Below are positions 13,151 to 42,026 of a DNA stretch of 42,670 nucleotides, piece after piece. The notes beneath the pieces are model-generated. The model was not told where the DNA came from. It worked only from the letters and a program-made list of their open reading frames with translations, and did not search any database. Each line of letters begins with the position of its first letter. Position 1 is the first letter of the stretch. The DNA lies in assembly GCA_021159005.1 (NCBI GenBank), contig JAGGSN010000138.1, positions 1-42,670 on the forward strand. The letters are read 5' to 3'. The stretch is from Candidatus Zixiibacteriota bacterium. Its GTDB lineage: Bacteria > Zixibacteria > MSB-5A5 > UBA10806 > 4484-95. A program made the translations under genes and the position numbers.

Positions 13151-13578
13151 GCTCATTATCAAAACGCTTTTACAAGATTAGTATCACCTATATGATGTTG
13201 GCGGTATATGCCCTCGTGCAAGAGCACTTCTGTGCGCGAAACTGGTAATGATGACAACTTGTATCATATTAACGCGTAGGGGCGTATTGCATACGCCCAC
13301 TGGTTGCCAAACCTCTTAGGGAAACCTTATAGCGGTAAGGCAAACCGCGGCGGCTTACTTCTGCCAAATATTTTATAGCTACCAATCAAGTATACATCCC
13401 CGAGAGCCGCCTGACAGGAACCCCCCAACAAGTTTTAAAGAAAACTATACATCTACTGCAAATACTGCAAAATTCAGGTTTAAAAATATTTTCCTTCTGA
13501 TAAACTATCCCAACCCTAAACAGTCTCGCTGAATAACCGAACTATATAACTTTTATGAATAAAAAACCTTAAAAAGCT
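13151..13578. other. Convergent intergenic region with palindromic repeats
   Basis: There are 428 bases between the anti-sigma gene and the small basic protein gene. I see no coding frame worth calling. It holds the hairpin repeat at 13280-13298 and other short GC-rich pieces (CCGCGGCGGC near 13346, GAGCCGCCTGACAGG near 13401) in an otherwise AT-rich stretch. Confidence 0.6.
13280..13298. repeat. Dispersed hairpin repeat GGGCGTAT-TGC-ATACGCCC
   Basis: A perfect 8-bp stem around TGC. The 17-base core GGGGCGTATTGCATACG recurs at 36276-36292, and a related palindrome GGCGTATACGCC lies at 28973-28984. Confidence 0.8.
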
Positions 13579-13674
13579 TTATACTTTTTTCTTTTTATGA
13601 CGGTTTTTCCGTAATCTTTTTTTACGCTTATGTGTTTTTATTTTATGACGTTTACGTTTTTTACCACTTGGCAT
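13579..13674 (-). CDS. AURKAIP1/COX24-domain (mS38-like) small basic protein
   Basis: A 31-residue protein, MPSGKKRKRHKIKTHKRKKR followed by LRKNRHKKKKV. It is nearly all Lys, Arg and His. The sequence matches the short conserved proteins annotated as AURKAIP1/COX24-domain in Bacteroidota, related to the mitochondrial ribosomal protein mS38; a ribosomal role is therefore likely. The gene begins four bases after the stop of the HU gene, so it is translated from the same message. It is too short for ordinary gene calling. Confidence 0.85.
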   Translation of the reverse strand: MPSGKKRKRHKIKTHKRKKRLRKNRHKKKKV

Positions 13675-13678
13675 ACAA

Positions 13679-13972
13679 CTATACTCTGTTCGCTTCAGAA
13701 TTCATAACTAGGTTTTTAAATTCATTTGAGGGTTTAAAAACTGGAATCTTTCTGTCGGGAACTGGTACCTCCTCACCTGTTCTTGGGTTACGCGCTTTGC
13801 GAGCTTTGCGGGGTTTAATCTTGAAAGTGCCAAAACCACGGATTTCAATATTCTTACCGGTTTCTAAGCTTTTTTTAATTGCATCAAGTAAACTATCAAC
13901 TGTTGCCGCTACATCGGTTCTTGTCAAACCGGTTTTTTCAGCAACTTGCTCAACCAGATCAGCTTTGGTCAT
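13679..13972 (-). CDS. HU/IHF-family DNA-binding protein
   Basis: The protein has 97 residues, the usual HU length. It is a nucleoid protein that binds and bends DNA as a dimer. The N-terminal helices (MTKADLVEQVAEKTGLTRTD), IRGFGTFKI, and the DNA-intercalating arm ARNPRTGEEVPVPDRKIPVF with its Pro are all in place. AGGAGG lies seven bases before the ATG. It follows the zinc-ribbon gene by 14 bases. Confidence 0.96.
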   Translation of the reverse strand: MTKADLVEQVAEKTGLTRTDVAATVDSLLDAIKKSLETGKNIEIRGFGTFKIKPRKARKARNPRTGEEVPVPDRKIPVFKPSNEFKNLVMNSEANRV

Positions 13973-13986
13973 TTCAATCCTCCTAT

Positions 13987-14223
13987 TTAATTTCTTCCAT
14001 TTATAGTCAAACTAGAACATCCACTGCAACTGTTTTTAGTACATCCGCTGCAACTTGAACCGGTTGATCCGACAAACACAGATGAACACTTAAAACCGCA
14101 AACTGAAAGCTTCTGTTCAATTTCCGAAGACCCGCATGAGGGGCAGACTGTTTCCTCGTTTCCTCTCACCAACTCTTCAAAATCACTGTTACACTGTTTA
14201 CAATTATATTCGTATATCGGCAT
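13987..14223 (-). CDS. FmdB-type zinc-ribbon protein
   Basis: The protein has 78 residues. The N-terminus MPIYEYNCKQCNSDFEELV plus CPSCGSSE is the FmdB (CxxC_CxxC_SSSS) signature, with two CxxC knuckles at residues 8-11 and 32-35 binding one zinc. The tail is rich in Cys, Ser and Gly (SCSGC, SCSGCSS) as is common in the family. The function of FmdB-like proteins is not settled. It lies 17 bases after sppA. Confidence 0.92.
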   Translation of the reverse strand: MPIYEYNCKQCNSDFEELVRGNEETVCPSCGSSEIEQKLSVCGFKCSSVFVGSTGSSCSGCTKNSCSGCSSLTINGRN

Positions 14224-14240
14224 AAATCCACTAAACTCAA

Positions 14241-15137
14241 CTATTTATAGATATACTCCAATTTAGGCCATGTTTCTTTCGAGATACTAATATCCAATAA
14301 AACGGCGGCTTTTTGCGCTAAATAATCCATTAGACCCGGACGGCGCTGATATTCTTTTACAACTTTTGGATCATCTCCCAAGCCGGCCATCTCGCCAGCT
14401 AATACGATAGCATCCTCAAGTCCGCCCAGTTTATCAACCAAGCCAAGCTCAAGGGCTTGATTGCCTGTAAATATCGACCCGTCAGCAATATCCTCAACTT
14501 GCTCAATATCGAGATTGCGCGATTGCGACACAGCTAAAACAAATTGATTATAAACATCATCAATCGCCGTCTGAAGCATCTCTTGTTCTTTCTGGGTCAT
14601 CTCCCGCGACATATTGCCAACATCCTTTAAAGCACCAGACTTGACAACCTCTAACTGCATTCCAACCTTGTCCATCAACCCCTCAAACGTGTAAAATGAG
14701 AAAATAACACCAATTGAGCCGGTTAATGAGCCGGGGTTGGCTATAATGGTATCAGCTGCGCAGGCAATATAATATCCGCCGGAAGCCGCCAGCGATGAAA
14801 TAGATACAACAACATAAGTGCCATCATTCCGAACTTTAACTATTTGGTCGTATATTTCCTGTGAGGGCGCTACTGCTCCGCCGGGGGAATTAATTCTTAG
14901 CACAATGACAGGAATAGAACTGTCATCGCTGTATTTTTTCAACTGACGGACAATATCCTCTGAGCTTTCGATAATACCCTCAACTTCGATAAGAGCAACC
15001 TTATCGCCAACCGAGACAAGCGGCATGCCTGTATAGTTGTGGGTCAGGCTCCAGATAGAAACGCCTATCATAATAACGAAAAGCGCCGCTACGCTGGCAA
15101 TGACTATCCACAATACGATGTTGCGAGTACTGGCCAT
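14241..15137 (-). CDS. sppA: Signal peptide peptidase SppA (S49, short form)
   Basis: The protein has 298 residues. One N-terminal membrane helix (about 8-31) anchors a ClpP-like S49 domain on the outer face of the membrane. Catalytic Ser119 (SSLAASGGYYIA) and Lys171 (SGALKDVG) form the Ser/Lys dyad. The GSLTGSIGVI strand and QALELGLVDKLGG are also typical. The length fits the short, single-domain SppA found in Gram-positive and many other bacteria. It degrades signal peptides left in the membrane. It is within a minus-strand gene run from mutL to the small basic protein. Confidence 0.95.
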   Translation of the reverse strand: MASTRNIVLWIVIASVAALFVIMIGVSIWSLTHNYTGMPLVSVGDKVALIEVEGIIESSEDIVRQLKKYSDDSSIPVIVLRINSPGGAVAPSQEIYDQIVKVRNDGTYVVVSISSLAASGGYYIACAADTIIANPGSLTGSIGVIFSFYTFEGLMDKVGMQLEVVKSGALKDVGNMSREMTQKEQEMLQTAIDDVYNQFVLAVSQSRNLDIEQVEDIADGSIFTGNQALELGLVDKLGGLEDAIVLAGEMAGLGDDPKVVKEYQRRPGLMDYLAQKAAVLLDISISKETWPKLEYIYK

Positions 15138-15190
15138 AATTGGAGTGAAATGTAAATCAACCTCTGGCTAATGTCAAATCATTTCTTAAG

Positions 15191-17227
15191 TTACCGAGCA
15201 TAAATTTTTAATTTTTTGCCTTTTGTCAATTTTGAGGGATTGGAAATGTTGTTCCATTCTACAATATCTTGAATCGTAACGCCGAACATTTTGGCAATTT
15301 CCCAAAGATTGTCGCCCCTTTTGACTTTATATACTGTTGGAGAAATTTTATTTAATGCTAAAGTATTACTTGAACCAGTTTGTGGAATCTTGAGTTTCAT
15401 ATTGGGATAGATAGTGTTGGACTTTAACCTGTTTAGTTTTTTAATAGCTTTAACAGGCACGCCAAACTTTTTAGCCATTTTAGATAATGAATCTCCTCGT
15501 TTGACAATATAGACATTATTAGAACTCTTGGCGTTTCTTTGATTCCCCTTTTTGCCGGGGATAATCAGCTTTCTTCCCGGATAAATTCTGTTCGATGTTA
15601 GACTATTGGCTTTTTTCAAACTGCTTAAGCTCACATTGTGAGCGCGGGAAATCTCCCATAAAGTCTCGCCTCTTTTGACATGATAAAAGCCGGAACCATT
15701 TGGTACAACGTTGCTTCCACGGGATGAATAAATTTTTCCTGAACCTTTAGTAGTGGGCACCATTAAAGTGTGGCCGGAATAAATCCTGTATGGACGCTTG
15801 ATATCATTAGCCGCAATAATCGATGACATAGAAACGCCGTACTTTCTGGCGATTGTTGAAACGGTTTCGCCTCGTCTGATTCTATGCCTGACCCAATTAG
15901 TATTTTTCTCAGAGGGGATTTCGGCATAGGCAGCCAGAAGCTTATCTTTTGTGCCTACCGGAACTTTCAGCTTATAGTTTTTGTAATTTGGAGGTGTTGC
16001 ACCTCTTAGCAGTTCGGGATTCAGAAGTTCAAGGTCGACAACTGATATGCCTGATTTGGCTGAGATATTGCCGAATGTCATGCACTTGGAGACCTCGACA
16101 GTTTCCCATGAGATAGGCTTTTCATAAGTTGGAAAGAAACCGTATTTTTCAGGCTGTTTGGCAATAATGACAGCCGCCATAAAAAGCGGCACATAATTGC
16201 GGGTTTGCTTTAATAATTTGAGTTTCCAGAAGTCTCTTGTTTTACGTTTTCTAATCTCTCTTCTAACTCTTCCCTCGCCGCCGTTATAACTGGCTAAGGC
16301 TAATTCCCAACTATCAAATTCATCGTGCAAGTCTTTTAAATAGCGGGCAGCGGCGCGAGTGGATTTTTCAAAATCGCGTCTTTCATCATACCACCAGTTG
16401 CGTTTCATCCCATATCTTTTGCCGGTTGCATAAATAAACTGCCAGAAACCTACTGCTCGGGCATACGAATAAGCATGAGGATTAAACCCGGATTCTATCA
16501 ACGGCAAATATACTATATCATGCGGTATGCCTTCTTCCCTGAGGATTTGCTCCATTAATGGCATATACCGTCCGGAGCGGCTTAAATATTTCTCGAATGT
16601 ATCATGAGCCACTGTTTGCAAATATGCTAACGAGTTCTCGACTTTTTCGTTGAAAACAATCGGCACATCATAAACAACAGAATCTTTCTCGAAATGATGA
16701 AACTTGCCGGATTCCTTTAAATCTTTGAAATTCTTAATATCAGAAAAGAGGTCGCGGAAAGCGGCCGCCGAGCCTTCGGAATAAAGCACTCCCGATGTCA
16801 TCAATGTTAGACGATAATCAGATTCTATCTCTTTTAAAAGCGTTTCCATCCATTGAGCTTCCGTCGGGAAATATTCAGCATCAAACTCAAGCTCGGATAA
16901 AACCAGCAAAGCCGCCTCAAAAGCTGCCTGAGATGAATCCAGTGAATTTTGCTGATAATAGATAACCCCATCGGTATAATATGATTCCGATTCGCCCAGC
17001 GCTTCGCGTATATCTGACCGCAGGCTCGAATTATCCTCAATGATAATATCAGCCGCGTTTATTTCATCGCCGTTCTGGTTATTGCCATTTCGAGCGGCAG
17101 GCTGGTTGGGGGTTAAGTTCTGTGAGCCATATTGTGAACAGCTAATGATGACAGCAAGTAAGAAAACTATGATAGCAAAAACACTATTTTTCAAAAATAC
17201 CTCTCTTATTTTCATAACCTGTTGCAT
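15191..17227 (-). CDS. mltD: MltD-type lytic murein transglycosylase with four LysM domains
   Basis: The protein has up to 678 residues. The N-terminus is a lipoprotein signal ending IISC (Cys30). Residues about 225-345 are an SLT domain with catalytic Glu245 in LPLIESGFNPHAYS and the AVGFWQF and LASYNGGEGR motifs. Four LysM repeats follow (about 447-491, 514-557, 572-614, 632-676), binding glycan strands. The enzyme cleaves peptidoglycan with formation of 1,6-anhydroMurNAc, the product recycled by NagZ and AnmK encoded at 5997-8094. A second in-frame ATG (17215) is an equally possible start; neither has a good ribosome site. Confidence 0.93.
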   Translation of the reverse strand: MQQVMKIREVFLKNSVFAIIVFLLAVIISCSQYGSQNLTPNQPAARNGNNQNGDEINAADIIIEDNSSLRSDIREALGESESYYTDGVIYYQQNSLDSSQAAFEAALLVLSELEFDAEYFPTEAQWMETLLKEIESDYRLTLMTSGVLYSEGSAAAFRDLFSDIKNFKDLKESGKFHHFEKDSVVYDVPIVFNEKVENSLAYLQTVAHDTFEKYLSRSGRYMPLMEQILREEGIPHDIVYLPLIESGFNPHAYSYARAVGFWQFIYATGKRYGMKRNWWYDERRDFEKSTRAAARYLKDLHDEFDSWELALASYNGGEGRVRREIRKRKTRDFWKLKLLKQTRNYVPLFMAAVIIAKQPEKYGFFPTYEKPISWETVEVSKCMTFGNISAKSGISVVDLELLNPELLRGATPPNYKNYKLKVPVGTKDKLLAAYAEIPSEKNTNWVRHRIRRGETVSTIARKYGVSMSSIIAANDIKRPYRIYSGHTLMVPTTKGSGKIYSSRGSNVVPNGSGFYHVKRGETLWEISRAHNVSLSSLKKANSLTSNRIYPGRKLIIPGKKGNQRNAKSSNNVYIVKRGDSLSKMAKKFGVPVKAIKKLNRLKSNTIYPNMKLKIPQTGSSNTLALNKISPTVYKVKRGDNLWEIAKMFGVTIQDIVEWNNISNPSKLTKGKKLKIYAR

Positions 17228-30596: not shown

Positions 30597-31652
30597 TCAG
30601 CATATTCGCGGCAGCTGCTCGCCGCTTAGCATATCAATGATGCGTTCAACGCCAAGCCCGCTTTTCATAGTTACTAAACCCGTATCCCGATTAGTTGTTT
30701 TGCCGATTATGCAGGCGTCGGCGCTAACAGAATCAGAATGCATAATCTCCAGCGCTTTTTCTGCATGTTTCTTCGGGATAAAAGCTATAAACCTGCCCTC
30801 ATTGGCTATATATATCGGCTCAAAGCCAAGTATCTCGCAAGCGGCTTGAACCTCCTCGTCAACCGGTATGGAACTCTCATCAATTTCAATTTTATAACCG
30901 GAGCCTTTGGCGATTTCAACTAACGCAGAAGCCAGTCCGCCGCGGGTTAAATCTCTCAGGCAATGTATTTCAACTCCCGCATCAATAAGATTCATCACGC
31001 AATTTCTTAGCGGTGCGCAGTCGCTCTCTATTGTCGTTTCAAAAGACAACCCCTCGCGTTTCGCCATAACGGCAATTCCATGACGGCCTATATCGCCGCT
31101 GAGGATAATAATATCTCCGGCCTTTATGCTCGATGGGTCAATAGTCAAAGCATGTTCGATAATACCGATACCGGCAGTATTGATAAACACGCCATCGCCT
31201 TTACCTTTATCTACAACTTTAGTGTCGCCGGTTATTATTCTGACTCCTGCTTCTTTGGCAGTCCGGCCCATAGATATGGCTATTTCCCAGAGCGTTTCTA
31301 TAGGCAGCCCCTCCTCTAAAATGAAGCCAGCGCTAAGATACAATGGCTTTGCGCCGCACATTGCCAGGTCGTTAACCGTGCCGTTAACCGCCAGCGTTCC
31401 GATATCTCCTCCGGGAAAGAAGAGCGGGCTTATAACATACGAATCCGTTGTGAAAGCCAGCTTGCCGGCGCCCGGATTAATAACCGCCCCATCATGTTCT
31501 ATTTCAAGCTCCGGATTTTCGAATGACTGCTTGAATATCCTGTCGATTAACTGATGCATTAATTTGCCGCCGCCGCCATGGGCTAATAGAATGTTGGGGT
31601 AATCAGATATTGGTACAGGGCAATTTAAGTTTAGTTCATTATACGTTTTCAT
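30597..31652 (-). CDS. hypE: Hydrogenase maturation protein HypE
   Basis: The protein has 351 residues. It belongs to the PurM/SelD-like ATPase fold ([41 protein letters not shown]). The C-terminus LPRIC ends in the Cys that receives the carbamoyl group from HypF and is dehydrated to thiocyanate, the source of CN ligands for the active-site iron. It is the last gene of the hyp series, 16 bases after hypD. Confidence 0.96.
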
Positions 31653-31668: not shown

Positions 31669-32772
31669 TTATTGATTTTGATTGCTTATAACTTTTCGAT
31701 AGCGATAATAGGCGGCGCAGGCTCCCTCAGAGGAAACCATAGTGGCGCCTAATGGATTTTCAGGCGTACAGCGTTTGCCAAAGGCTTTACACTCCGGCGG
31801 CTTTTTCAGGCCCTGTAGGATAAGCCCGCTTATACACTCCGCCGATTCTTTGCTATCGAGACCGGAGATATCGAATTTGTTCTCAGCATCATACTCTGTA
31901 TATTTATCAGCCAGCGTCAAACCGCTGTCGGGAATTTCTCCTAAGCCGCGCCAAGTGCGATTGACCACCTTATAGACTTCTCTCATTAATTTCTGAGCTT
32001 GTATATTTCCTGCTCTTTGCACTGCGCGCGCGTATTGATTTTCGACAAAAGCTCGACCTTGTTCAAGCTGAATTATGTTCATATGAATGCCCTGCAGGAT
32101 ATCTAACGGCTCAAAACCCGTTACGGTGATGGGAACCTTATACTTTAAGGCTATCTTTTCATATTCGGCGAATCCCATTATGGTACAGACATGGCCGGCC
32201 GCTAAAAATCCCTGAACCTTGCCTGCCGGTGACGATAATATCGTTTCAATAGCTGGCGGAATCAATACCTGAGCATTCAATATCGAGAAATTTGATAACG
32301 CCAACTGCTTGGCTTGATAAACAGTCATGGCATTAGCCGGCGCGGTAGTTTCAAAACCGATGGCAAAGAATACCGTCTCTTTTGATGGATTATTTTGAGC
32401 TATTGTTAACGCATCCATAGGCGAATATACTACGCGGATATCGCCGCCCTCCGCTTTTGCCGATAAAAGATTCTTGACGCTGCCCGGCACTCTGAGCATA
32501 TCACCGAAAGAGCAGAAGATAACATCATCATTCAAGGCTATCGTGATTGCTTTGTCGATAATATCTATAGGCGTAACACACACCGGACAGCCGGGCCCGT
32601 GAAGCAGAGTTATTTTATCGGGCAGTAGTTGGTCGATGCCATGCTTCAAGATGGCGTGTGTCTGCCCGCCGCAAACCTCCATGATTGTCCAGGGCTTGGT
32701 AGTTATCCGGGTGATTGCCTCAGCATATTTTAAAGCGGCTTGAGAATCACGGTATTCATCGAGATACTTCAA
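31669..32772 (-). CDS. hypD: Hydrogenase maturation protein HypD
   Basis: The protein has 367 residues. With HypC it forms the scaffold on which Fe(CN)2CO is built. Conserved blocks are [38 protein letters not shown] and the C-terminal Cys cluster for the [4Fe-4S] centre ([25 protein letters not shown]). The start codon is TTG and overlaps the hypC stop as TTGA, which suggests translational coupling. Confidence 0.96.
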
Positions 32773-33020
32773 CGATTATCATCCTCAAGTTCAATTTTAG
32801 AGATTTGATCAAGGTAGTCAAATACTGTTTCCGCTTCTTTTTCATCAACGATGTTTATAGCAAAACCGGCGTGGACTATCACATAATCGCCAATTTGCGC
32901 TTGCGGCACATAAGCCAGATTTGTTTCCTTAATCACTCCTCCGAAACTAACCTTGCCCGCTGCCATCAAAGATTCGCTATTTTCAATACTGATTATTTTA
33001 CCTGGTATTGCCAGACACAT
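32769..33020 (-). CDS. hypC: Hydrogenase maturation chaperone HypC
   Basis: The protein has 83 residues. The N-terminus [14 protein letters not shown] carries Cys2, which binds the iron precursor and contacts the large subunit. [17 protein letters not shown] is the second family motif. It follows hypF by 14 bases and overlaps hypD. Confidence 0.96.
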
Positions 33021-33034
33021 TTATCTAATCCTTA

Positions 33035-35350
33035 TCATTTAATATTTAAAGATGCAGCAAGCTGACCCAGACATATGCCGCCATCATTCGGCGGTATCAG
33101 GTGATGCCAATATGGCTGAAACCCGGATTCAATCAATCGGGCAATCGTCCGCTCGGTTAAATATTTATTTTGGAAACAGCCGCCGGTCAATAAGACTTTT
33201 TTCTCGCCTGTATTTGCTGCTATGGCTATTATCATTTCCGTTAGCGTATTATGGAATATCCTTGAGATTTCTCCTGTCGGTTTCAGGTTATCCAAATCGT
33301 CGATGATTTCAAGTATCATCGGTTCCCAGTCTATAATATATGATTCATTCTGCTTTTTCAATGCGAACTTGTATGCATCGTTTGTGCCATATTTTTCCGC
33401 TTCAAATTCAAGCTTCATGGCTGCTTGTCCCTCGAAACTAATGCGCGGTCCGAGTTTTAGAATAAATGACACTGCATCAAACAACCTGCCGGCACTGGAT
33501 GCAACAGGTGCGTTTATTTTTCTTTCGAGCATCTTTCGCAGGATTTTCAATTCGTTTTGATTGAAGGCATCGGCAATAATATGTTTCCTGTCGTCGAAAA
33601 TATTATCTCCGAATATTTCATACAGCAAACCCAGTGCCGACCGGCGCGGTTCATTAATCGCTTTTTCATTTCCGGGAAGCCTGAATGTTCGCAGATGCGC
33701 AGTTCGAGAAAACGAATCTTTGCTGATTGTTAAAAACTCGCTGCCCCAGATTGTGCCATTGAGACCATAACCAGTGCCATCCCAGACCACGCCGAGCGCC
33801 GGCCCTTCAATATCATTATCAATCAAGCAGGAAAGAGCATGGGCATAATGATGCTGAACTTTTAACTGCGGTATGTTCATATCGGAAATATAACTTGATG
33901 AATAATAATCCGGATGTTTATCGCAAACAATAGTGGTCGGCGTAAAATCATAAAGGTTTGCAAGAGACCTTATTACATTCTTGAAAGTATTGCATGATTG
34001 ACTATTTTCCAGATCGCCTATATGCTGGCTGATGAAAGCCTGATTGCCGATTGATATAGCAATACTGTTTTTTTGATGAGCACCAACTGCCAGACGGGGA
34101 GGGATTTTATCGGTTAATGGAATAGGCAACGGCGCATAACCGCGAGCGCGGCGCAATATCAATTCGCGCCCCATCATTACCCGCACGATGGAATCATCAA
34201 CATGATTGACAATAGGACGATTGTGAACCAAGAATATATCGGCGATGCTCCCCAAGCGGCTTAACGCTTCATGATTATCAATGCATAACGGTTCATCCGA
34301 AAAGTTGCCGCTGGTCGCTACTACCGGAAACCTTAGTTCAGCCATCAGCAGATGATGCAATGGCGTATAGGGAAGCATTATCCCAAGATAGGGGTTATTC
34401 GGCGCAGCAAGGGCAGAAACACCAGCCGGACTTTCAGCGGCATTATGTTTTCTCCTCAACAGCAAAATAGGTGATTCCGGCGAACTAAGTAGTTGGCGTT
34501 CCAGTGCGGAAGTTTCGCAGTCGGATGCAGCCGTGTCCGAGTCGGGATACATCAGGGCAAATGGTTTTTCCATACGGGCTTTTTTATACCGGAGACGGGC
34601 GACAGCTTGTTCATTTCTAACGTCAACAATAAGCTGAAAGCCGCCTAATCCCTTTAGAGCTATTATCTCGCCGTTTCGGATAGCATCGCAAGCATTAAGC
34701 AAGGCTTCATTATGAGATGCTAAAATACTTCCATTCTTGTCCCACAATTCAAGGCGCGGCCCGCAATTGGGACAGGCATTAGGTTGAGCATGGAACCGCC
34801 GATTGAGAGGGTCTTCATATTCAGACCGGCACTCATCACACATTGTAAAAGTTTTCATCGTTGTATTTGAGCGGTCATAGGGGAGAGCTTCAATAATGCT
34901 GTATCGCGGCCCGCAATTCGTGCAATTGGTGAAAGGGTATTGATAGCGCCGGTTGTTTGGATCGAATATATCATGCAAACAATCTGAGCAGACAGCAATA
35001 TCAGGCAAGACCAAAGCGGTTTTCTCACCTGATAGTTCGCTTTCTTTTATTGTGAAGCCATCATATCCAACCGTATCGGCAATTTCATATTTAACGCTTT
35101 TTATTAGCGAATGCGGAGGGCTTTCAGTTTGAGCGCGAGTTAAAAATTCATTTAATGTTTCAATGTTTCCTTCAAGTTCTATTACTACCCCCTGCGCAGA
35201 GTTGCTAACCCATCCCGGAATTTTAAGCTGCGTTGCCAAACGATAAATAAAGGGGCGGAATCCTACCCCCTGAACAGCGCCCTGTATCCATATTTTCAAA
35301 CGGCAATTTTTCTTCTTTTCCCCTGATAGTATTTTTATATCTATAGACAT
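33035..35350 (-). CDS. hypF: Carbamoyltransferase HypF
   Basis: The protein has 771 residues. In order: an acylphosphatase domain (WIQGAVQGVGFRPF), a double zinc-finger region with CxxC pairs (CSDC, CTNC, CDEC, CPNC), a YrdC-like domain (ALKGLGGFQLIVD, ATSGNFSDEPLC) and a Kae1-like carbamoyltransferase domain (VQHHYAHALSCL, VWDGTGYGLNGTIWG, LLTGGCFQNKYL). It makes carbamoyl-AMP from carbamoyl phosphate and loads HypE. The ATG at 35350 is taken; a GTG 12 bases earlier is possible. It starts 40 bases after the double-DsrC gene. Confidence 0.95.
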   Translation of the reverse strand: MSIDIKILSGEKKKNCRLKIWIQGAVQGVGFRPFIYRLATQLKIPGWVSNSAQGVVIELEGNIETLNEFLTRAQTESPPHSLIKSVKYEIADTVGYDGFTIKESELSGEKTALVLPDIAVCSDCLHDIFDPNNRRYQYPFTNCTNCGPRYSIIEALPYDRSNTTMKTFTMCDECRSEYEDPLNRRFHAQPNACPNCGPRLELWDKNGSILASHNEALLNACDAIRNGEIIALKGLGGFQLIVDVRNEQAVARLRYKKARMEKPFALMYPDSDTAASDCETSALERQLLSSPESPILLLRRKHNAAESPAGVSALAAPNNPYLGIMLPYTPLHHLLMAELRFPVVATSGNFSDEPLCIDNHEALSRLGSIADIFLVHNRPIVNHVDDSIVRVMMGRELILRRARGYAPLPIPLTDKIPPRLAVGAHQKNSIAISIGNQAFISQHIGDLENSQSCNTFKNVIRSLANLYDFTPTTIVCDKHPDYYSSSYISDMNIPQLKVQHHYAHALSCLIDNDIEGPALGVVWDGTGYGLNGTIWGSEFLTISKDSFSRTAHLRTFRLPGNEKAINEPRRSALGLLYEIFGDNIFDDRKHIIADAFNQNELKILRKMLERKINAPVASSAGRLFDAVSFILKLGPRISFEGQAAMKLEFEAEKYGTNDAYKFALKKQNESYIIDWEPMILEIIDDLDNLKPTGEISRIFHNTLTEMIIAIAANTGEKKVLLTGGCFQNKYLTERTIARLIESGFQPYWHHLIPPNDGGICLGQLAASLNIK

Positions 35351-35390
35351 TTTCTTGTTCACTTTGAATCTTCAAAGCTGCGAATGCAGG

Positions 35391-36050
35391 TTATCTCACT
35401 CGCAAGCCGGCGATCTTTACTGCGCCTCTATGATACCCATCCGGAAACAACCGTTCCAGCTCTTCCAAATCGATGTGGTTTTCTTCACAGGTCTCATAGA
35501 CCGTGGGAACATCATTGTTGTCATTAAAATATTTGCGAAGAAACATTATAATTTGCCAATGCTTGTCGGTCAGTTTGCCGTTTGGTATTTTCATATCATA
35601 AGCTCTGCAGGCGGCATAATATTCATTCCATTCATTGGGGTTCAGCAAGAATCCGCGCACATCAACAGCGTATGTCTTCTCAGCGGCTAATAAGTTATGA
35701 TTCTCAGTAACCAATTGTGATTCATTATCCCCAATATACCCCTCTTTATAGGTAATGCCTGCAAGTTTACAAGCGCCTCTAAGATATCCACTGGGGAAAA
35801 GCCTTTTTAGATTTTGGAGATTCAAGCCGTTTTTTATGGAAACTTCAAAAACAAGAGGGCATTTCCCTGTTTCCTTGAAAGTATTGCGAATGAAATAAAT
35901 AATATCCCAGTGTTCCTTCGTTAAACTATGGATTATTTTAGCTCCTATAGCCATTCCTTCAGCATAATTCTCATCCCAATGATTAAAGTTTATTAGAAAA
36001 TCTCTTGAATCTACTTCATAAGACTTATTATTGTAAGTAAAGGTACCCAT
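35391..36050 (-). CDS. Tandem double DsrC/TusE-family protein
   Basis: The protein has 219 residues, twice the length of a normal DsrC. Domain 1 (about 3-106) and domain 2 (about 126-219) each show the family pattern: YEVDSRDFLINFNHW and YAVDVRGFLLNPNEW, LTKEHWDIIYFIR and LTDKHWQIIMFLR, then RLFPSGY and RLFPDGY. DsrC uses two C-terminal cysteines in sulfur transfer. Domain 1 keeps only the inner one (Cys94 in RGACKLAG; Tyr105 replaces the outer one). Domain 2 has neither (RGAVKIAG, ends RVR). It lies between the hydrogenase and hyp genes, has AAGGAG five bases before the ATG, and has its own strong promoter. A sulfur-carrier, electron-relay or regulatory role for the hydrogenase is inference. 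Confidence 0.88.
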   Translation of the reverse strand: MGTFTYNNKSYEVDSRDFLINFNHWDENYAEGMAIGAKIIHSLTKEHWDIIYFIRNTFKETGKCPLVFEVSIKNGLNLQNLKRLFPSGYLRGACKLAGITYKEGYIGDNESQLVTENHNLLAAEKTYAVDVRGFLLNPNEWNEYYAACRAYDMKIPNGKLTDKHWQIIMFLRKYFNDNNDVPTVYETCEENHIDLEELERLFPDGYHRGAVKIAGLRVR

Positions 36051-36123: not shown

Positions 36124-36152
36124 AATATATTTTACCGTTTCAATGCTGTCAA
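36124..36152 (-). promoter_or_regulatory. Strong putative promoter of the DsrC-hypFCDE segment
   Basis: On the minus strand a perfect TTGACA (36147-36152), a 17-base spacer and TATATT (36124-36129, 5/6). The predicted transcript would have a leader of about 67 bases before the DsrC-like gene. Confidence 0.6.
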
Positions 36153-36174: not shown

Positions 36175-36192
36175 TCTCCGCCGCGGCGGAGA
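36175..36192. repeat. Perfect 18-bp GC palindrome
   Basis: TCTCCGCCGCGGCGGAGA is its own reverse complement. A near relative, CCCGCCGCGGCGAGGG, lies at 41856-41871. It sits just upstream of the promoter at 36124-36152. Confidence 0.75.
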
Positions 36193-36347: not shown

Positions 36348-36824
36348 TCATTGCTTGGAAATATTATTTATTTCCTTCTCAATTAGATCAATAACTTCAT
36401 AAGCGGCGCTTTCAACTTCCGGAGTTAGGCCGATTCCAGCTGAAAAATCAATACCCTCTATGCCGAAGACAATTAACGAATCGGGGATTTCCCCCAAGCT
36501 TTTAGCCAATTCTATCGATTCGACTAAGCTGATTGAATGAGTTGAATATCCGGTAAATATCTCGCCGGGAATCGTCTCATTCAAAGCGTCAAACCTATAA
36601 ACTGTTCCGGATTTGGCTGATGAAATGACTGCATCTATAATGAAAACCGCATTATCATTCGACCATATATTCATAAGAGCCGCACCATCGCTGACACCAT
36701 CAATCACTTTAACATCATCAAGCTTCATCGCTTTAATTTTTTCAACAGTATATAATCCGACTCCATCATCTTTTCGATACTTATTACCCAATCCTATAAC
36801 TAGTATAGAATTATTTATTTTCAT
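36348..36824 (-). CDS. [NiFe] hydrogenase maturation protease (M52)
   Basis: The protein has 158 residues. GLGNKYRKDDGVG at the N-terminus, VFIIDAVISSAKSG and the His in YSTHSISLVE supply the nickel-sensing ligands of the HybD/HycI family. It clips the C-terminal tail of the large subunit after nickel insertion. It starts 11 bases after hydA, its likely substrate, whose tail after the last active-site His is FLKLNINRD. Confidence 0.93.
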   Translation of the reverse strand: MKINNSILVIGLGNKYRKDDGVGLYTVEKIKAMKLDDVKVIDGVSDGAALMNIWSNDNAVFIIDAVISSAKSGTVYRFDALNETIPGEIFTGYSTHSISLVESIELAKSLGEIPDSLIVFGIEGIDFSAGIGLTPEVESAAYEVIDLIEKEINNISKQ

Positions 36825-36835
36825 GGTTAGTCCGT

Positions 36836-38125
36836 TTAATCGCGGTTAATATTAAGTTTTAAAAAATGACAGGAACAAGATATGCAGGGATCATAGTTGC
36901 GAACCGCCTGTTCGCATTTCCAAGTAAGGTCTTCCTTGGATAGGTCGAGATGTTTGGGGACAAAAGCCATCAGGTCGCTTTCGACAGTTTTTTGATTTTG
37001 CGAGGTTGGCGGGATAATTCTGGCATCCCGAATAACACCGTAATCATCGATTTTGTAATGATTATACAGTAGTCCACGGGGAGCCTCGGAACAGCCATAA
37101 CCTACGCCCGCCCTTGGAGCGACTTCAATGAAAGGCTTGTCCGGCATCTCGTAATTTTCGATAATCTTTATAGCTTCCTCGCAGGCAAAAAGCGTCTCGA
37201 CACTTCGCACGATAATACTTTTAAAGGGATTATTGCATGTCTTTGAAAGCCCGGCTTTCTTAGCAGCCTCCTGAGCAATCGCGGGAAGCTTATCGAAATT
37301 GAGGCTATAGCGCGCCATCGGACCGACGAAATAAGAACCGCGTTCTTTAATAACCGCATGAAGCGAGGTTGAATGTTTCACATGTTCTTCTTCAAAATGA
37401 TTAAGGAACTCGCTAATATTAATATCCAAGCCCTTGCTTGAAATTATCTGCTCGCCGATAAGCGGATACTCATCCGGGTGGCAAGTGGAAACGAATTCAT
37501 AATCCTGCTCAAAATCGGGGAACGGCAAGGTTGAAACCCAGCGAACCGTTTCAAGCGAGGCATCCCTGGCCCATTTTAAAGATTCTAATATAGCGCTTAG
37601 CTTCTTTTTGGTTGGGACTTTATAGAAACCGCCCACCTTGACGCTTACAGGATGAATCTCCCGTCCGCCCAAAAGTATAATCAGGTCATTGCCGATTTTT
37701 TTCAGCTTTAACCCTTGCTTTACGACATCCGGATGATCCTTTGACATCAAGATAGCATCCTGATAGCCGAGAAAATCGGGGGCATGCAGCATGTAGATAT
37801 GCAAGGCATGGCTTTCAATCCATTCGCCGCAATATAGCAAACGCCGCAGTTCGCGAAGCTGGCCATCCACCTTGACTCCGCATATGCTTTCCATAGCATG
37901 AACTGAACTCATCTGGTAGGCGACCGGACAGATGCCGCAGATACGAGCCGTAATATCCGGTGCTTCCGTGAATTTTCTGCCGCGCAGGAAAGCCTCAAAA
38001 AAACGAGGCGGTTCAAATATCTTGAGCTTGGCGGATGTAACCTTGTCGCCTTTTATTTTGATATCTAACCCGCCTTCACCCTCAACACGAGCTAAGTAAT
38101 CTACTTTTATAGTTCTACTTTTCAT
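36836..38125 (-). CDS. hydA: [NiFe] hydrogenase large (alpha) subunit, group 3b type
   Basis: The protein has 429 residues. It carries the Ni-Fe active site: L1 motif [12 protein letters not shown] and L2 motif DPCISCSCH near the C-terminus; four Cys ligands are all Cys codons, not Sec. [11 protein letters not shown] near the N-terminus is typical. The cytoplasmic, NAD(P)-linked group 3b (sulfhydrogenase) assignment rests on the gene set hydB-hydG-hydD-hydA. The ATG at 38125 overlaps hydD by 11 bases; the longer frame to 38164 is rejected. Symbol follows Pyrococcus usage. Confidence 0.95.
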
Positions 38126-38894
38126 GGGCTTCGCTCTCTTTCCTGAATGGCTCTGCGTAAGCATTGAATCCTCTTAAAGCCCTTATAATGTCATCTTTAC
38201 TAACGCCCAGTTTGCTGTAACAATTGCTGAGCGAGCTGGTATTAGGGGTTTCTTTCGGGCCAAAACAGCTGTAACAACCGCGATTAAACGAGGGACAAAT
38301 CGCATCGCATCCGGCTTGTGTTACCGGTCCCAAACATGGAGTTCCATGAGCCACCATCACACAGACATTGCCTTTTCTTTTGCACTCCATGCACAAGCTG
38401 TAGGAGGGAATATTAGGTTTTCTGCCGTTTAGCAAGGCGCTTATAAGCTCAACCAACTGATATTTATTAATCGGACAGCCGCGCAGCTCGAAATCTACGA
38501 AAACATGGTCGGCTATCGGAGTCGACTTGTTTAACGTTTTGATATATTCCGGGTTTGCATATACTATAGAGATAAATTCATTAACATCTTTGAAATTTCG
38601 CAGGGCTTGAATGCCTCCCGCTGTGGCGCAAGCGCCGATAGTAACAAGAATCTTTGAGATTCGGCGGATTTTATGAATGCGTTCCGCATCATGAGGTGTA
38701 GTTATCGAACCCTCCACCAATGAAAGGTCATACGGGCCTTTGGCAATTGCCCGCGAGGCTTCCGGGAAATTTGCAATATCAACAGCGCCGGCAACCGTTA
38801 GCAATTCATCCTCGCAATCCAAAAGACTTAACTGACAGCCGTCGCATGAAGCGAATTTCCAAACAGCAAGCTTTGGTTTTCGTATTGGAGTCAT
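38115..38894 (-). CDS. hydD: [NiFe] hydrogenase small (delta) subunit, group 3b type
   Basis: The protein has 259 residues. It belongs to the NADH-quinone oxidoreductase 20 kDa-like family, with [34 protein letters not shown] and [14 protein letters not shown] supplying Cys ligands for [4Fe-4S] clusters that wire the Ni-Fe site to the diaphorase. There is no Tat signal, consistent with a cytoplasmic enzyme. It starts one base after the hydG stop and overlaps hydA. Confidence 0.95.
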
Positions 38895-38895
38895 A

Positions 38896-39723
38896 TTAAA
38901 TTTCCCGTTTCAAATATATGTCTTTAATATAATCATAACAATAAACCGGCCCGTCCTTGCATATAAATTCCGACCCCATCTGGCAATGACCGCAGAGACC
39001 TATACCGCATTTCATATTTCTTTCCATTGAAACATAGATTCGGTCATCGGAGATGCCCCTTTTCTGAAGCGATAGCGCCGTGAAACGCATCATAATTTCA
39101 GGTCCGCAAACCATGGCGATTGAACTCAATGGATCAAAGGGGGCTTTACCTATCAGGTTGGTTACAACTCCGACATTGCCTTTCCAGTCGCCGGCAGCGC
39201 GATCGACAGTGATATGGGTTTCTATATCAAACCGCGACCGCAGCTTCATTAATTCCTTACGGAAAAGGATGTCATCGGGCGTTCTGGTTCCATATAAAAT
39301 CACGACTTTTCCGTATTCTTCTCTATGCGCCAAGACATGATATACAACCGGACGCAATGGCGCCAAACCTATGCCGCCCGCCACTATTACAACATCATAG
39401 CCGTAAGCTTTCTCTGCCGGCCAGCTTGTGCCATAGGGACCGCGTATGCCAATGGAATCGCCGGTTTTTAATTTCCACATCGCCTTGGTAACATTTCCGA
39501 CAGCTCGCGTCGTATGCACCAATATATTTTGTTTGCTTGGGTTGCCGCTAATAGAAATCGGCACTTCACCCACTCCAAAGACATAAAGCATATTGAATTG
39601 CCCCGGAGTAAATGAATGATTTTTGACTCGACCCTTGGGAACCAACTCCATCGTGAAAGTATCATGGGTCTCCTTAATCACCCGTTCAACAAGATAGGGC
39701 TGAGTCGACATCGGGTCGGCCAT
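38896..39723 (-). CDS. hydG: Hydrogenase gamma subunit, FAD/NAD(P) diaphorase
   Basis: The protein has 275 residues from the ATG at 39723. It is a ferredoxin-reductase-like protein: FAD-binding barrel ([15 protein letters not shown]), NAD(P)-binding domain ([39 protein letters not shown]) and a C-terminal [2Fe-2S] site with [20 protein letters not shown]. It passes electrons between NAD(P)H and the small subunit. The start at 39723 has GAGG five bases upstream; the frame is open to an ATG at 39765, which would overlap the preceding gene by 23 bases. Confidence 0.94.
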
Positions 39724-39742
39724 AAGAGCCTCGCTGGACGAA

Positions 39743-40210
39743 TTATTCTTCTGTTTGCGGGCCATAAATATCCATTAACTGCAGTCTGGTAGCATTCATC
39801 CGTTCGGCTATCACCAGTGCGAATCGTTTCATTATCTCATAACCAAAATCGTGGTCATCATCACATTTTCCTCTGAGGCATTTGCCGTCAAGAGCAACTG
39901 CCCGAGTCATCTCTAAAGCGCGGGCATCAAAATGCCAGTGATAAGGGGGCACCAGCCATGACCATCCGGTTACCTCCCCTTCCTTTCTGGTTTGAATAAC
40001 AACTGCTCCCTTTTGTGGAATGAAAGTTTCGATATTTACTTTGCCCTGACGAATGAAATAGAACGAGTTGGCTTCCTCTCCCTCGCGAAATAAAAATTCG
40101 CCGGGTTTGAAGACAACATTTGACGCACAACCGGTGAGCAATTTGATATGCCGGTCTGCAAGCCCCTTAAGGAAGGGCTGTTCCACTAATACTCGCTCAA
40201 GCATTTCCAT
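39743..40210 (-). CDS. Cyclic-nucleotide-binding-domain protein without DNA-binding domain
   Basis: The protein has 155 residues. It is a CRP/FNR-type sensor barrel: FKPGEFLFREGEEANSFYFI, RQGKVNIETFIPQ, GEVTGWSWLVPPYHWHFDARAL, followed by one helix. No helix-turn-helix follows, so it is not itself a transcription factor. Single-domain proteins of this kind recur in group 3b hydrogenase operons, where their role is unknown; allosteric control of the enzyme is a fair guess. It lies 29 bases after hydB. Confidence 0.88.
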   Translation of the reverse strand: MEMLERVLVEQPFLKGLADRHIKLLTGCASNVVFKPGEFLFREGEEANSFYFIRQGKVNIETFIPQKGAVVIQTRKEGEVTGWSWLVPPYHWHFDARALEMTRAVALDGKCLRGKCDDDHDFGYEIMKRFALVIAERMNATRLQLMDIYGPQTEE

Positions 40211-40239: not shown

Positions 40240-41379
40240 TCATTTATTGATTTCGCTTTCTTCAATAATTGAAGCTTCTTCGGTTATATCTATACCTGCA
40301 GGACACCACGTGATGCAGCGTCCGCAGCCTACACAACCCGACATGCCGAACTGGTCGTGCCAGGCGGCTAATTTATGCATCATCCATTGACGGTAGCGGG
40401 ACATCGGTGAAATACGGATACTGCCTCCGGCTATATAGGAGAAATCTAAAGTAAAACATGAATCCCATACACGCCGCCTTTGAGCTATTTGCCCTGACAG
40501 ATCGGTAGTATCCTCTATGGTAGTACAGAAACAAGTAGGGCAAACCATAGTGCAATTACCGCAGGTAAGACACCGCGCGGCTATTTTTTCCCAATAAGGA
40601 TTTTCAAAATTGCGCTGAAGCAGATTTTTAATTCCTGCGGCGTTTAGCTTGCGTCCCATATTATTAGAAGCATTTTCCACTTTCTTGTCGGCGGCTTCAA
40701 TTTCTTTATCGCCGGCAGGATTACAGGGAACTTCTTTTAGTATTTCAGCGCCAGCCTCAGAGCCAACTTCGACAACGAAGTAATGGCGACCCTTTTCAAT
40801 AACCTCAGTCAGAGCCAGGTCGAAACCCGTAATTGCTTTTGGTCCGGTATTCATTGATACGCAAAAACAGGTGCCGCTAGGATGAGTGCAGTTAACAGCT
40901 ATGATGAAAACATTATCGCGGCGTTTCTTGTAGGATGGGTCGGCATAAGGTCCATCGAGGAATATCTTATCATGAATAGCAATGGCATTAAGTTCGCATG
41001 AGCGAACGCCAATAAATGCCCGCTTTGGAACCTCTTCATTATTCTTTATAATTTCAAAACCGCTTTTAGTCTTTCGAGCCTCCCACAATTTTTGCACAGG
41101 CGGATAAAGATATTTCTTCCATGAATGAGGGCTAGATGCATAACCGAACAAGGACTTGTCATCACTTTTTGTCAGTCGGTAACTAGCGTTATCTTGCTGG
41201 TCATGGAATCCGATTGGAAGTTCATCAAGCGATGAAATAGCGTCATAGACAACGGCATTTTCACTAACAATAGGTCCGATAATCTCATAACTTTTTAGAG
41301 ATAGAACCTCAACGATTTTGTTCAGGTCGTTTCTGAGTGTAACGAATTTGGGTCTTTTTTTGAAATCAGCCGCTTTCAT
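40240..41379 (-). CDS. hydB: Hydrogenase beta subunit, 2x[4Fe-4S] electron transfer
   Basis: The protein has 379 residues from the ATG at 41379. The N-terminal two thirds form the domain typical of sulfhydrogenase beta subunits (FIGVRSCELNAIAIHDK, CTHPSGTCFC), and the C-terminus has two ferredoxin-type motifs, CLTCGNCTMVCPTCFC and CVGCGRCITWCPAG. It relays electrons and, in the Pyrococcus enzymes, belongs to the sulfur-reductase half with HydG. AAAGG lies before the ATG. The frame is open upstream to 41589, but that part is repeat-derived and lies over the promoter. It is the first gene of the hydrogenase operon. Confidence 0.94.
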   Translation of the reverse strand: MKAADFKKRPKFVTLRNDLNKIVEVLSLKSYEIIGPIVSENAVVYDAISSLDELPIGFHDQQDNASYRLTKSDDKSLFGYASSPHSWKKYLYPPVQKLWEARKTKSGFEIIKNNEEVPKRAFIGVRSCELNAIAIHDKIFLDGPYADPSYKKRRDNVFIIAVNCTHPSGTCFCVSMNTGPKAITGFDLALTEVIEKGRHYFVVEVGSEAGAEILKEVPCNPAGDKEIEAADKKVENASNNMGRKLNAAGIKNLLQRNFENPYWEKIAARCLTCGNCTMVCPTCFCTTIEDTTDLSGQIAQRRRVWDSCFTLDFSYIAGGSIRISPMSRYRQWMMHKLAAWHDQFGMSGCVGCGRCITWCPAGIDITEEASIIEESEINK

Positions 41380-41395
41380 TGTGAAACCTTTCACA
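41380..41395 (-). promoter_or_regulatory. CRP-like palindrome TGTGA-N6-TCACA at the hydB start
   Basis: TGTGAAAGGTTTCACA on the minus strand fits the CRP/FNR-family core TGTGA-N6-TCACA perfectly. It directly precedes the ATG and includes the Shine-Dalgarno AAAGG in its middle. A further half-site (41400-41404) makes three alternating arms. Position downstream of the -10 box suggests repression, or an RNA hairpin at the ribosome site. Confidence 0.6.
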
Positions 41396-41407
41396 AACCT
41401 GTGAAAA

Positions 41408-41436
41408 AATTTAACGGCTTTAACTGATTTTGTCAA
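41408..41436 (-). promoter_or_regulatory. Promoter of the hydrogenase operon
   Basis: On the minus strand a perfect TTGACA (41431-41436), 17 bases, then TAAATT (41408-41413, 4/6). Transcription would start near 41401, giving a leader of about 22 bases. Confidence 0.6.
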
Positions 41437-41868
41437 GGAAATAATGAAGAAATTAGAATATATTTTATACAGCCGCATCCCGACAATAATCCACGGTGAG
41501 ACTGATGAGTCCGCTTGTGGCGGATGCCGCCTGCGTGATTGTTTTCTCGCTGCCAATCGGTACTTGGTAACAAGAGAGGTTGTTGACAAAAAGTAATATA
41601 GGGATATATTTCAACACCATGGAAATAGTCGGGGCTATTAAGTTTTAATTATTAACCCGGATTTTGCAGTAGAACTACAAATAAATTATTCGGAATCTTG
41701 TTAAACATTTAGCATTAAGAACACACCCCCAACCCCTCTCAAGAGGGGAATAAATCAATAAAGGCACACGAGGACATGTGCCGCCCAATCCAACCTTTCT
41801 CAAGAGCAGAGTAATATTTGCGTTAACACGTCATATGATTATGCAATTTAAAGTCCCCGCCGCGGCGA
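41437..41868. other. Intergenic region with degenerate repeats
   Basis: I see no gene here. It holds TCCGCTTGTGGCGGA-type palindrome remnants near 41508-41530, the 34-nt repeat at 41720-41753, a decayed relative of it (CCTTTCTCAAGAGCAGAG near 41795), GGCACACGAGGACATGTGCC near 41763, and CCCGCCGCGGCGAGGG at 41856-41871. Confidence 0.6.
41720..41753. repeat. 34-nt dispersed repeat, copy 2
   Basis: Matches 26357-26390 at 33 of 34 positions, same orientation, including the CCCCTCT-CA-AGAGGGG hairpin. Confidence 0.85.
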
Positions 41869-41926
41869 GGGAATGACATTATTATAGTATCCGCCTAAGG
41901 CGGACAAAAGGCCGGATAGTAGTGAT
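41869..41926 (+). repeat. 58-nt inverted repeat, left arm
   Basis: Begins GGGAATGACATT and ends AGTAGTGAT. Its reverse complement matches 42535-42592 at 55 of 58 positions with no gap. It contains the inner palindrome TCCGCCTAAGGCGGA. Confidence 0.92.
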
Positions 41927-42026
41927 TTGATTTGTTTCTATATCTAAACTAATGCCGAAAATAACTTGATTTATCTCGCAGCTAAACTATCATTAATGTA
42001 TAATGCAACATTAAAGGAGATTTAAA

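Follow-up and report, generated by a model that had tools for sequence, protein, structure and literature searches.

The 42,670-nucleotide window analysed here, contig C138 of a 3.66-Mb, 97% complete Candidatus Zixiibacteriota genome, encodes a protein in which two DsrC domains are joined in a single chain, and this tandem DsrC (TD) belongs to what is apparently a widespread, undescribed family. We interpret TDs as DsrC-derived sulfur/redox regulators that hydrogenase maturation has recruited in Zixibacteria, and put the probability of this reading at roughly 0.4. A fuller version of the same idea, in which TDs are cysteine-switched regulators built from a tandem-fused sulfur-carrier fold and tie sulfate uptake and activation, Hmc/DsrMK and Zixibacteria [NiFe] maturation to the sulfur-redox state, is more tentative. 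No description of a two-domain DsrC was found in the literature searched, whose coverage excludes most subscription papers; the initial annotation of this locus had likewise suspected that such a protein is undescribed.

The window TD is a 219-aa open reading frame on the minus strand (Table 1), and the ORF call, its translation and the presence of two full DsrC-like domains all bear out the initial annotation. The Pfam DsrC profile (PF04358) matches in two stretches with 141.3 bits against a cut-off of 24.9, and in the genome search domains 1 and 2 exceed this cut-off singly (73 and 71 bits, respectively), which places domain 2, too, inside the DsrC family. TIGR03342 gives 113.8 bits against a cut-off of 53.5. 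The two domains share 47% identity over 92 columns, and are 28% and 35% identical to the canonical DsrC of the same genome. An AlphaFold2 model (mean pLDDT 84.5, pTM 0.46) joins them by a flexible linker, and the top Foldseek matches of this model are all DsrC (TMt 0.75-0.91).

Table 1. Positions of the window TD, its parts and the surrounding hydrogenase and hyp genes.
Feature	Coordinates	Strand	Basis
hypE	30597..31652	-	TIGR02124
hypD	31669..32772	-	TIGR00075
hypC	32769..33020	-	TIGR00074
hypF, 28 bp downstream of TD gene	33035..35362	-	TIGR00143, 856 bits
TD gene, 219 aa	35391..36050	-	ORF, translation, Pfam DsrC twice
DsrC domain 2, residues 125-219; Val211 replaces inner Cys, penultimate Cys absent	35394..35678	-	sequence, AF2 model
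Cys188 codon, domain 2	35487..35489	-	
Linker, residues 105-124; pLDDT <50 at residues 104-121	35679..35738	-	AF2 model
DsrC domain 1, residues 1-104; inner Cys kept, penultimate Cys absent	35739..36050	-	sequence, AF2 model
Cys94 codon, inner DsrC cysteine of domain 1, invariant	35769..35771	-	
Ser71 codon; Cys in relatives and canonical Zixibacteria DsrCs	35838..35840	-	
Promoter-like TTGACA-17-TATATT in the 297-bp gap upstream of TD gene	36124..36152	-	11/12 positions
Hydrogenase maturation protease, upstream of TD gene	36348..36824	-	TIGR00072
Group 3b-like [NiFe] hydrogenase large subunit (HydA/ShyA-like)	36836..38164	-	NF040828
Hydrogenase small subunit (HydD/ShyD-like)	38115..38894	-	
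FAD/NAD(P)-binding subunit (HydG/ShyC-like)	38896..39765	-	
Iron-sulfur subunit (HydB/ShyB-like)	40240..41589	-	

The neighbours identified by TIGR00072 and TIGR00143 confirm the position of the TD gene, with the hydrogenase protease gene on one side and hypF on the other. Upstream of it run the protease gene and then a group 3b-like set in the order hydA-D-G-(cNMP-binding gene)-hydB, the large subunit scoring 279 bits with NF040828, which is under the equivalog cut-off of 700. The cyclic-nucleotide-binding-domain-like gene between hydG and hydB (39743-40210, minus strand) recurs at this position in the further group 3b operons of Zixibacteria that were compared. The initial annotation gave the TD gene a promoter of its own: a promoter-like site does lie in the 297-bp gap (36152..36124), so the TD gene may be the first gene of a TD-hypFCDE operon, but shuffles of the TD upstream region also yield promoter-like sites (3.4 on average).

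Elsewhere, the source genome holds a second TD (contig C77), which follows hypB after 15 bp in the order hypA-hypB-TD, and an intact canonical single DsrC (contig C231), ending KPTGCV, that adjoins dsrA, dsrB, a cobyrinate-synthase-like (DsrN-like) gene and a gene for an NAD(P)-binding DsrL-like protein. Neither locus had been part of the initial annotation, and the search for dsrAB that it proposed reveals a Dsr pathway. Group 3b hydrogenases are NADP-linked. DsrL-2 enzymes, for their part, require NADPH for sulfite reduction (PMC7596348), and taken together these two properties make an H2-NADPH-DsrL-DsrAB route plausible, judging by the genes that the source genome carries. The hypA promoter region is shared with a divergent TetR-family gene (L006, 11769-12044) and holds an inverted repeat, TGTTGACCGATTGTTCGGTCAACA, a likely TetR operator controlling hypAB-TD.

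The cysteine pair of a functional DsrC is absent from the window TD, where the inner cysteine is found in domain 1 only and the penultimate one in neither domain; the chain terminates in AGLRVR where canonical copies end KPTGCV, and thus has no GCV/GCL arm end. By comparison, all 20 canonical Zixibacteria DsrCs have both DsrC cysteines as well as a cysteine at the C71 position. Throughout the family, Cys94 is present in 62 of 62 sequences of the unbiased phylum set and in 123 of 123 overall, the latter count being partly biased since Cys94 was part of one of two patterns with which the wider set was collected. Cys188 is found in 60/62 of the phylum set and 120/123 overall, Cys71 in 112/123 (it is Ser in the window TD) and Cys64 of domain 1 in 111/123. 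Domain 2 has Val, Leu or Ile at the inner position in 115 of the 123 sequences and a Cys there in seven; a cysteine in the C-terminal tail was seen in just two. The 'degraded cysteines' of the initial annotation are therefore a misleading description: the pattern is conserved and asymmetric instead of being random loss, and we reject decay because C94 and C188 are kept across the 123 sequences. Domain 1 does keep Cys94 and lack the penultimate cysteine, as had been stated, but Cys94 is not its only cysteine, given C64; similarly, domain 2 had been described as free of cysteines, yet it contains C148 and C188 and lacks the inner and penultimate DsrC cysteines. In one TD branch (L087, L088 and L090), located beside DsrM-like and DsrK-like genes, the inner cysteine is present in both domains; the single DsrC-like gene at the same loci has its inner cysteine replaced (GAYRLAGLPRPSGCL), and the cysteine losses are complementary.

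The family comprises 123 distinct sequences. Full-length TDs occur in 34 of 132 Zixibacteria genomes, several of which have at least two copies, and are sparse outside this phylum, in MAGs of Desulfobacterota, Acidobacteria, Abyssobacteria, Calditrichota, Electryonea, Planctomycetota and Chloroflexi (we use the taxa given in the records, which for some MAGs may be imprecise). Two adjacent TDs are encoded by a cultured organism, Desulfobulbus elongatus DSM 2908; in its phylum only 7 of 297 genomes have one. The wider set was obtained by scanning genome contigs with an alignment as query, the same kind of scan with a single TD protein having returned no matches. In TD genomes dsrAB is nearly always kept, and a single-domain DsrC is also present in 11 of the 11 non-Zixibacteria TD genomes tested. 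Domain 1, domain 2 and canonical DsrC form separate groups in a tree, which would agree with one ancient fusion event, although the support of the domain-1 branch is low (55) and the tree is built from just 100 columns. None of the IMG/VR candidates proved to be a virus carrying a TD. A 363-aa protein with three DsrC domains (L081, 9395-10486, minus strand), whose middle domain ends GYLRGVCKLAG like domain 1, looks like a product of recombination between two TDs. In Zixibacteria, two of the TD genes are split over several frames (L054, 9049-10401, minus strand; L059, 218-922, plus strand), owing to frameshifts or assembly errors.

The genomic context of TDs has a common theme, sulfate reduction together with hydrogen metabolism, which extends beyond hydrogenase alone. 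Since large antisense ORFs at some loci confuse simple gene calling, we based the contexts on genes with homology support. Hydrogenase or hyp genes lie within 7 kb of 26 of the 63 Zixibacteria TDs and of 5 of the 60 TDs from elsewhere; the former fraction yields p = 3e-23 against an assumed background of about 3%, a value computed over related rows that are not independent of each other. When other TDs are skipped, 23 of the 63 directly adjoin a hyd or hyp gene, in 15 genomes of seven families, as against 0 of 60 elsewhere. The survey that the initial annotation had proposed hence carries the hydrogenase linkage well beyond the window in Zixibacteria, and outside this phylum finds homologues without adjacent hydrogenase genes. 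The adjoining gene is always hypB, hypE, the protease gene or hypF; in two cases hydB is the opposite neighbour. The direct gaps, downstream of hypB, hypE or protease, are an operon-like 11-73 bp, the exceptions being one overlap at a contig edge and the 297-bp protease-TD gap of the window. On the TD tree the hydrogenase label changes about 15-18 times, so the linkage recurs in several paralogue lines.

Most TDs (92/123) do not lie near hyd or hyp genes. Hydrogenase-linked TDs also occur at a second hydrogenase type, which has an MvhD-like gene, and at hypAB-only loci, TDs do not occur solely where group 3b genes do, and a strong NiFe hydrogenase match is missing from six TD genomes; a partnership dedicated to this group 3b hydrogenase is thus not supported. 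In Zixibacteria, dsrB is present in 29 of 34 TD genomes and in 20 of 98 others (odds ratio 22.6, p = 2e-11), an association stronger than that with NiFe hydrogenase (odds ratio 4.5, p 0.001), and context together with co-occurrence leads us to reject a hydrogenase-only role. On the sulfur side, genes of a sulfate ABC transporter flank the TD in L118 and L143, with a CysW-like permease and a CysA-like ATPase on either side. In L139 and L171 the TD follows APS kinase after 2 bp, in L112 and L124 it separates a rhodanese gene from hmc genes, with HmcB and HmcF above their equivalog cut-offs, and L087-L090 show a DsrMK context, three of these loci also having a single DsrC beside the DsrMK-like genes (L087, L088, L090). 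Near the TD, APS kinase and two CBS-domain genes of L171, a response-regulator receiver domain is fused to a sodium:sulfate symporter (13546-15576, plus strand). Linkage to two-component genes was discarded as a clue: 33 of 123 TDs have such genes within 7 kb, but only 13 are adjacent to one, and with histidine kinases and response regulators being so common in genomes, such linkage is uninformative.

The DsrC fold includes a helix-turn-helix, which the AlphaFold2 model of the window TD places at helix 67-73, turn and helix 78-84. The LexA_DNA_bind profile matches 24 of 39 TDs (best 1.1e-6) compared with 3 of 20 canonical DsrCs (best 0.024). The TD matches are mostly below the Pfam cut-off (17.0 against 23.7 bits for the window TD), and among the ten shown one passes it, with 28.8 bits in two stretches. 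When the window TD was compared with the PDB by Foldseek, the best short matches after DsrC were LexA, including LexA-DNA complexes (probability 0.54-0.82, E >1, local over 40-57 columns). In domain 2, the second helix of the helix-turn-helix has a mean charge of -2.7; it is acidic, so that at most domain 1 looks compatible with DNA, and the +1.5 of domain 1 is little over the +0.75 of canonical DsrC. The DsrC of A. vinosum reportedly binds DNA upstream of dsr genes. A search for an operator shared by three promoters of the source genome gave nothing beyond chance, and a motif search upstream of 59 TDs returned only ribosome-binding-site-like dyads and A/T-rich words. GC-rich perfect palindromes lie upstream of the TD gene (36176-36191) and of hydB (41590-42026). 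The one upstream of the TD gene, CTCCGCCGCGGCGGAG, has only two copies; palindromes of the form TCCGCCNNNGGCGGA number 202 in the genome against 0 in the reversed control, a REP-like repeat, and we therefore take CTCCGCCGCGGCGGAG for a repeat element and not for an operator.

Of the two roles that the initial annotation had offered for this protein, a redox regulator fits these observations better than a sulfur carrier does. Arguing for it are the invariance of C94 alongside the loss of the penultimate cysteine, the different conservation of the two domains and their separate grouping in the tree, the coexistence with single-domain DsrC in the source genome and elsewhere, the tracking of dsrB, LexA-like matches that are commoner in TDs, the short structural matches to LexA, the several paralogues per genome in different operons at operon-like distances, and the reported DNA binding of A. 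vinosum DsrC; the negative operator searches, the acidic helix, the mostly sub-threshold LexA scores and the position of many TDs last or in the middle of an operon, or as two to three adjacent copies, which is atypical of regulators, argue against it. If TDs instead relayed sulfur or electrons, a C94 persulfide or mixed disulfides with DsrC would act as a modified 'bacterial heterodisulfide' on which hydrogenase, Hdr, DsrMK or Hmc enzymes operate. The retained fold with its invariant C94, the TDs beside DsrMK-like genes and a single DsrC or at the hydrogenase with an MvhD-like gene, and the seven sequences of the DsrMK-linked branch with an inner cysteine in both domains would all suit such a relay. 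We nevertheless regard it as unlikely, since nearly all TDs lack in both domains the penultimate cysteine used by DsrC for sulfur transfer and the trisulfide, which is the very one that TusE keeps (PMC3397948), and in the sulfate transporter and APS kinase contexts there is no enzyme nearby to which a carrier of this kind would be of use.

That the Zixibacteria TDs are accessories of [NiFe] maturation, binding HypB, HypE/HypF or the protease and, for instance, making nickel or CN delivery depend on the cell's sulfur state, would account for the 23 that adjoin hyd or hyp genes on the maturation side and for the location of the source genome's two TDs at hypFCDE and hypAB. It would leave more than half of the Zixibacteria TDs, which lie away from hyp genes, the absence of adjacency elsewhere and the six genomes without a strong hydrogenase match to be explained by a different job for the rest of the family, and appears quite improbable. 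It is highly improbable that the window TD is a spare DsrC/TusE-type protein near hydrogenase genes by chance: although most TDs are not hydrogenase-linked and the linkage is confined to one phylum, its frequency in Zixibacteria, its recurrence on the TD tree and the position of both TD loci of the source genome within hyp gene groups all speak against coincidence.

On the regulator reading, TDs would go back to one ancient event that joined two DsrC domains in organisms capable of dissimilatory sulfite reduction. With the penultimate cysteine missing, a TD cannot make the Cys-Cys trisulfide, and the chemistry of DsrC has been given up; what would be retained is a LexA-like helix-turn-helix and C94 at the reactive position, plus C188 and usually C71. 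The analysis establishes the fold, the duplicated domain, the pattern of cysteines and the linkage in genomes; DNA binding, the sensing chemistry and the direction of control we infer: oxidation or persulfidation of C94, or exchange with DsrC, might alter the binding of the domain-1 helix-turn-helix to a promoter or a partner. Each paralogue could then tune its own operon, be it for sulfate uptake, APS kinase, Hmc or DsrMK, and several Zixibacteria paralogues may have been wired to [NiFe] hydrogenase maturation, matching the route from H2 via NADPH to DsrL/DsrAB. Little is known of how sulfate and sulfite reducers couple their hydrogen turnover to the condition of the sulfur pathway. A conserved two-domain DsrC that is present in several copies, lacks the carrier tail and keeps one invariant cysteine is a concrete candidate for such a link; through this family, probably in a regulatory role, hydrogen metabolism may be tied to sulfate reduction. 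With Desulfobulbus elongatus DSM 2908 in culture, this idea is testable.

Among known systems, the N-terminal winged-helix domain of LexA resembles TDs through weak but frequent profile similarity and a local structural match, which may reflect just the common helix-turn-helix; TDs differ in lacking the LexA protease domain and in the negative outcome of the operator search. RspA-type DsrC proteins, regulatory sulfur-related proteins brought in by the initial annotation, are likewise DsrC relatives without the full cysteine pair and suspected regulators. DsrC itself shares fold and family with TDs by Pfam, TIGR03342 and Foldseek, as well as the inner cysteine of domain 1. TDs are set apart from it by two domains per chain, the missing penultimate cysteine, a domain 2 without the inner cysteine, additional conserved cysteines, the motif GY[LH]RGA[CV]K in place of the canonical GPAKGACK, and a canonical DsrC resident in the same genome. 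TusE, a member of the same superfamily, has also lost one of the two cysteines, and the window TD scores 63.9 bits with the TusE equivalog model, well under its cut-off of 191. The loss is the reverse one: TusE types retain the penultimate cysteine and lose the inner one (PMC3397948), whereas TDs retain the inner and lose the penultimate.
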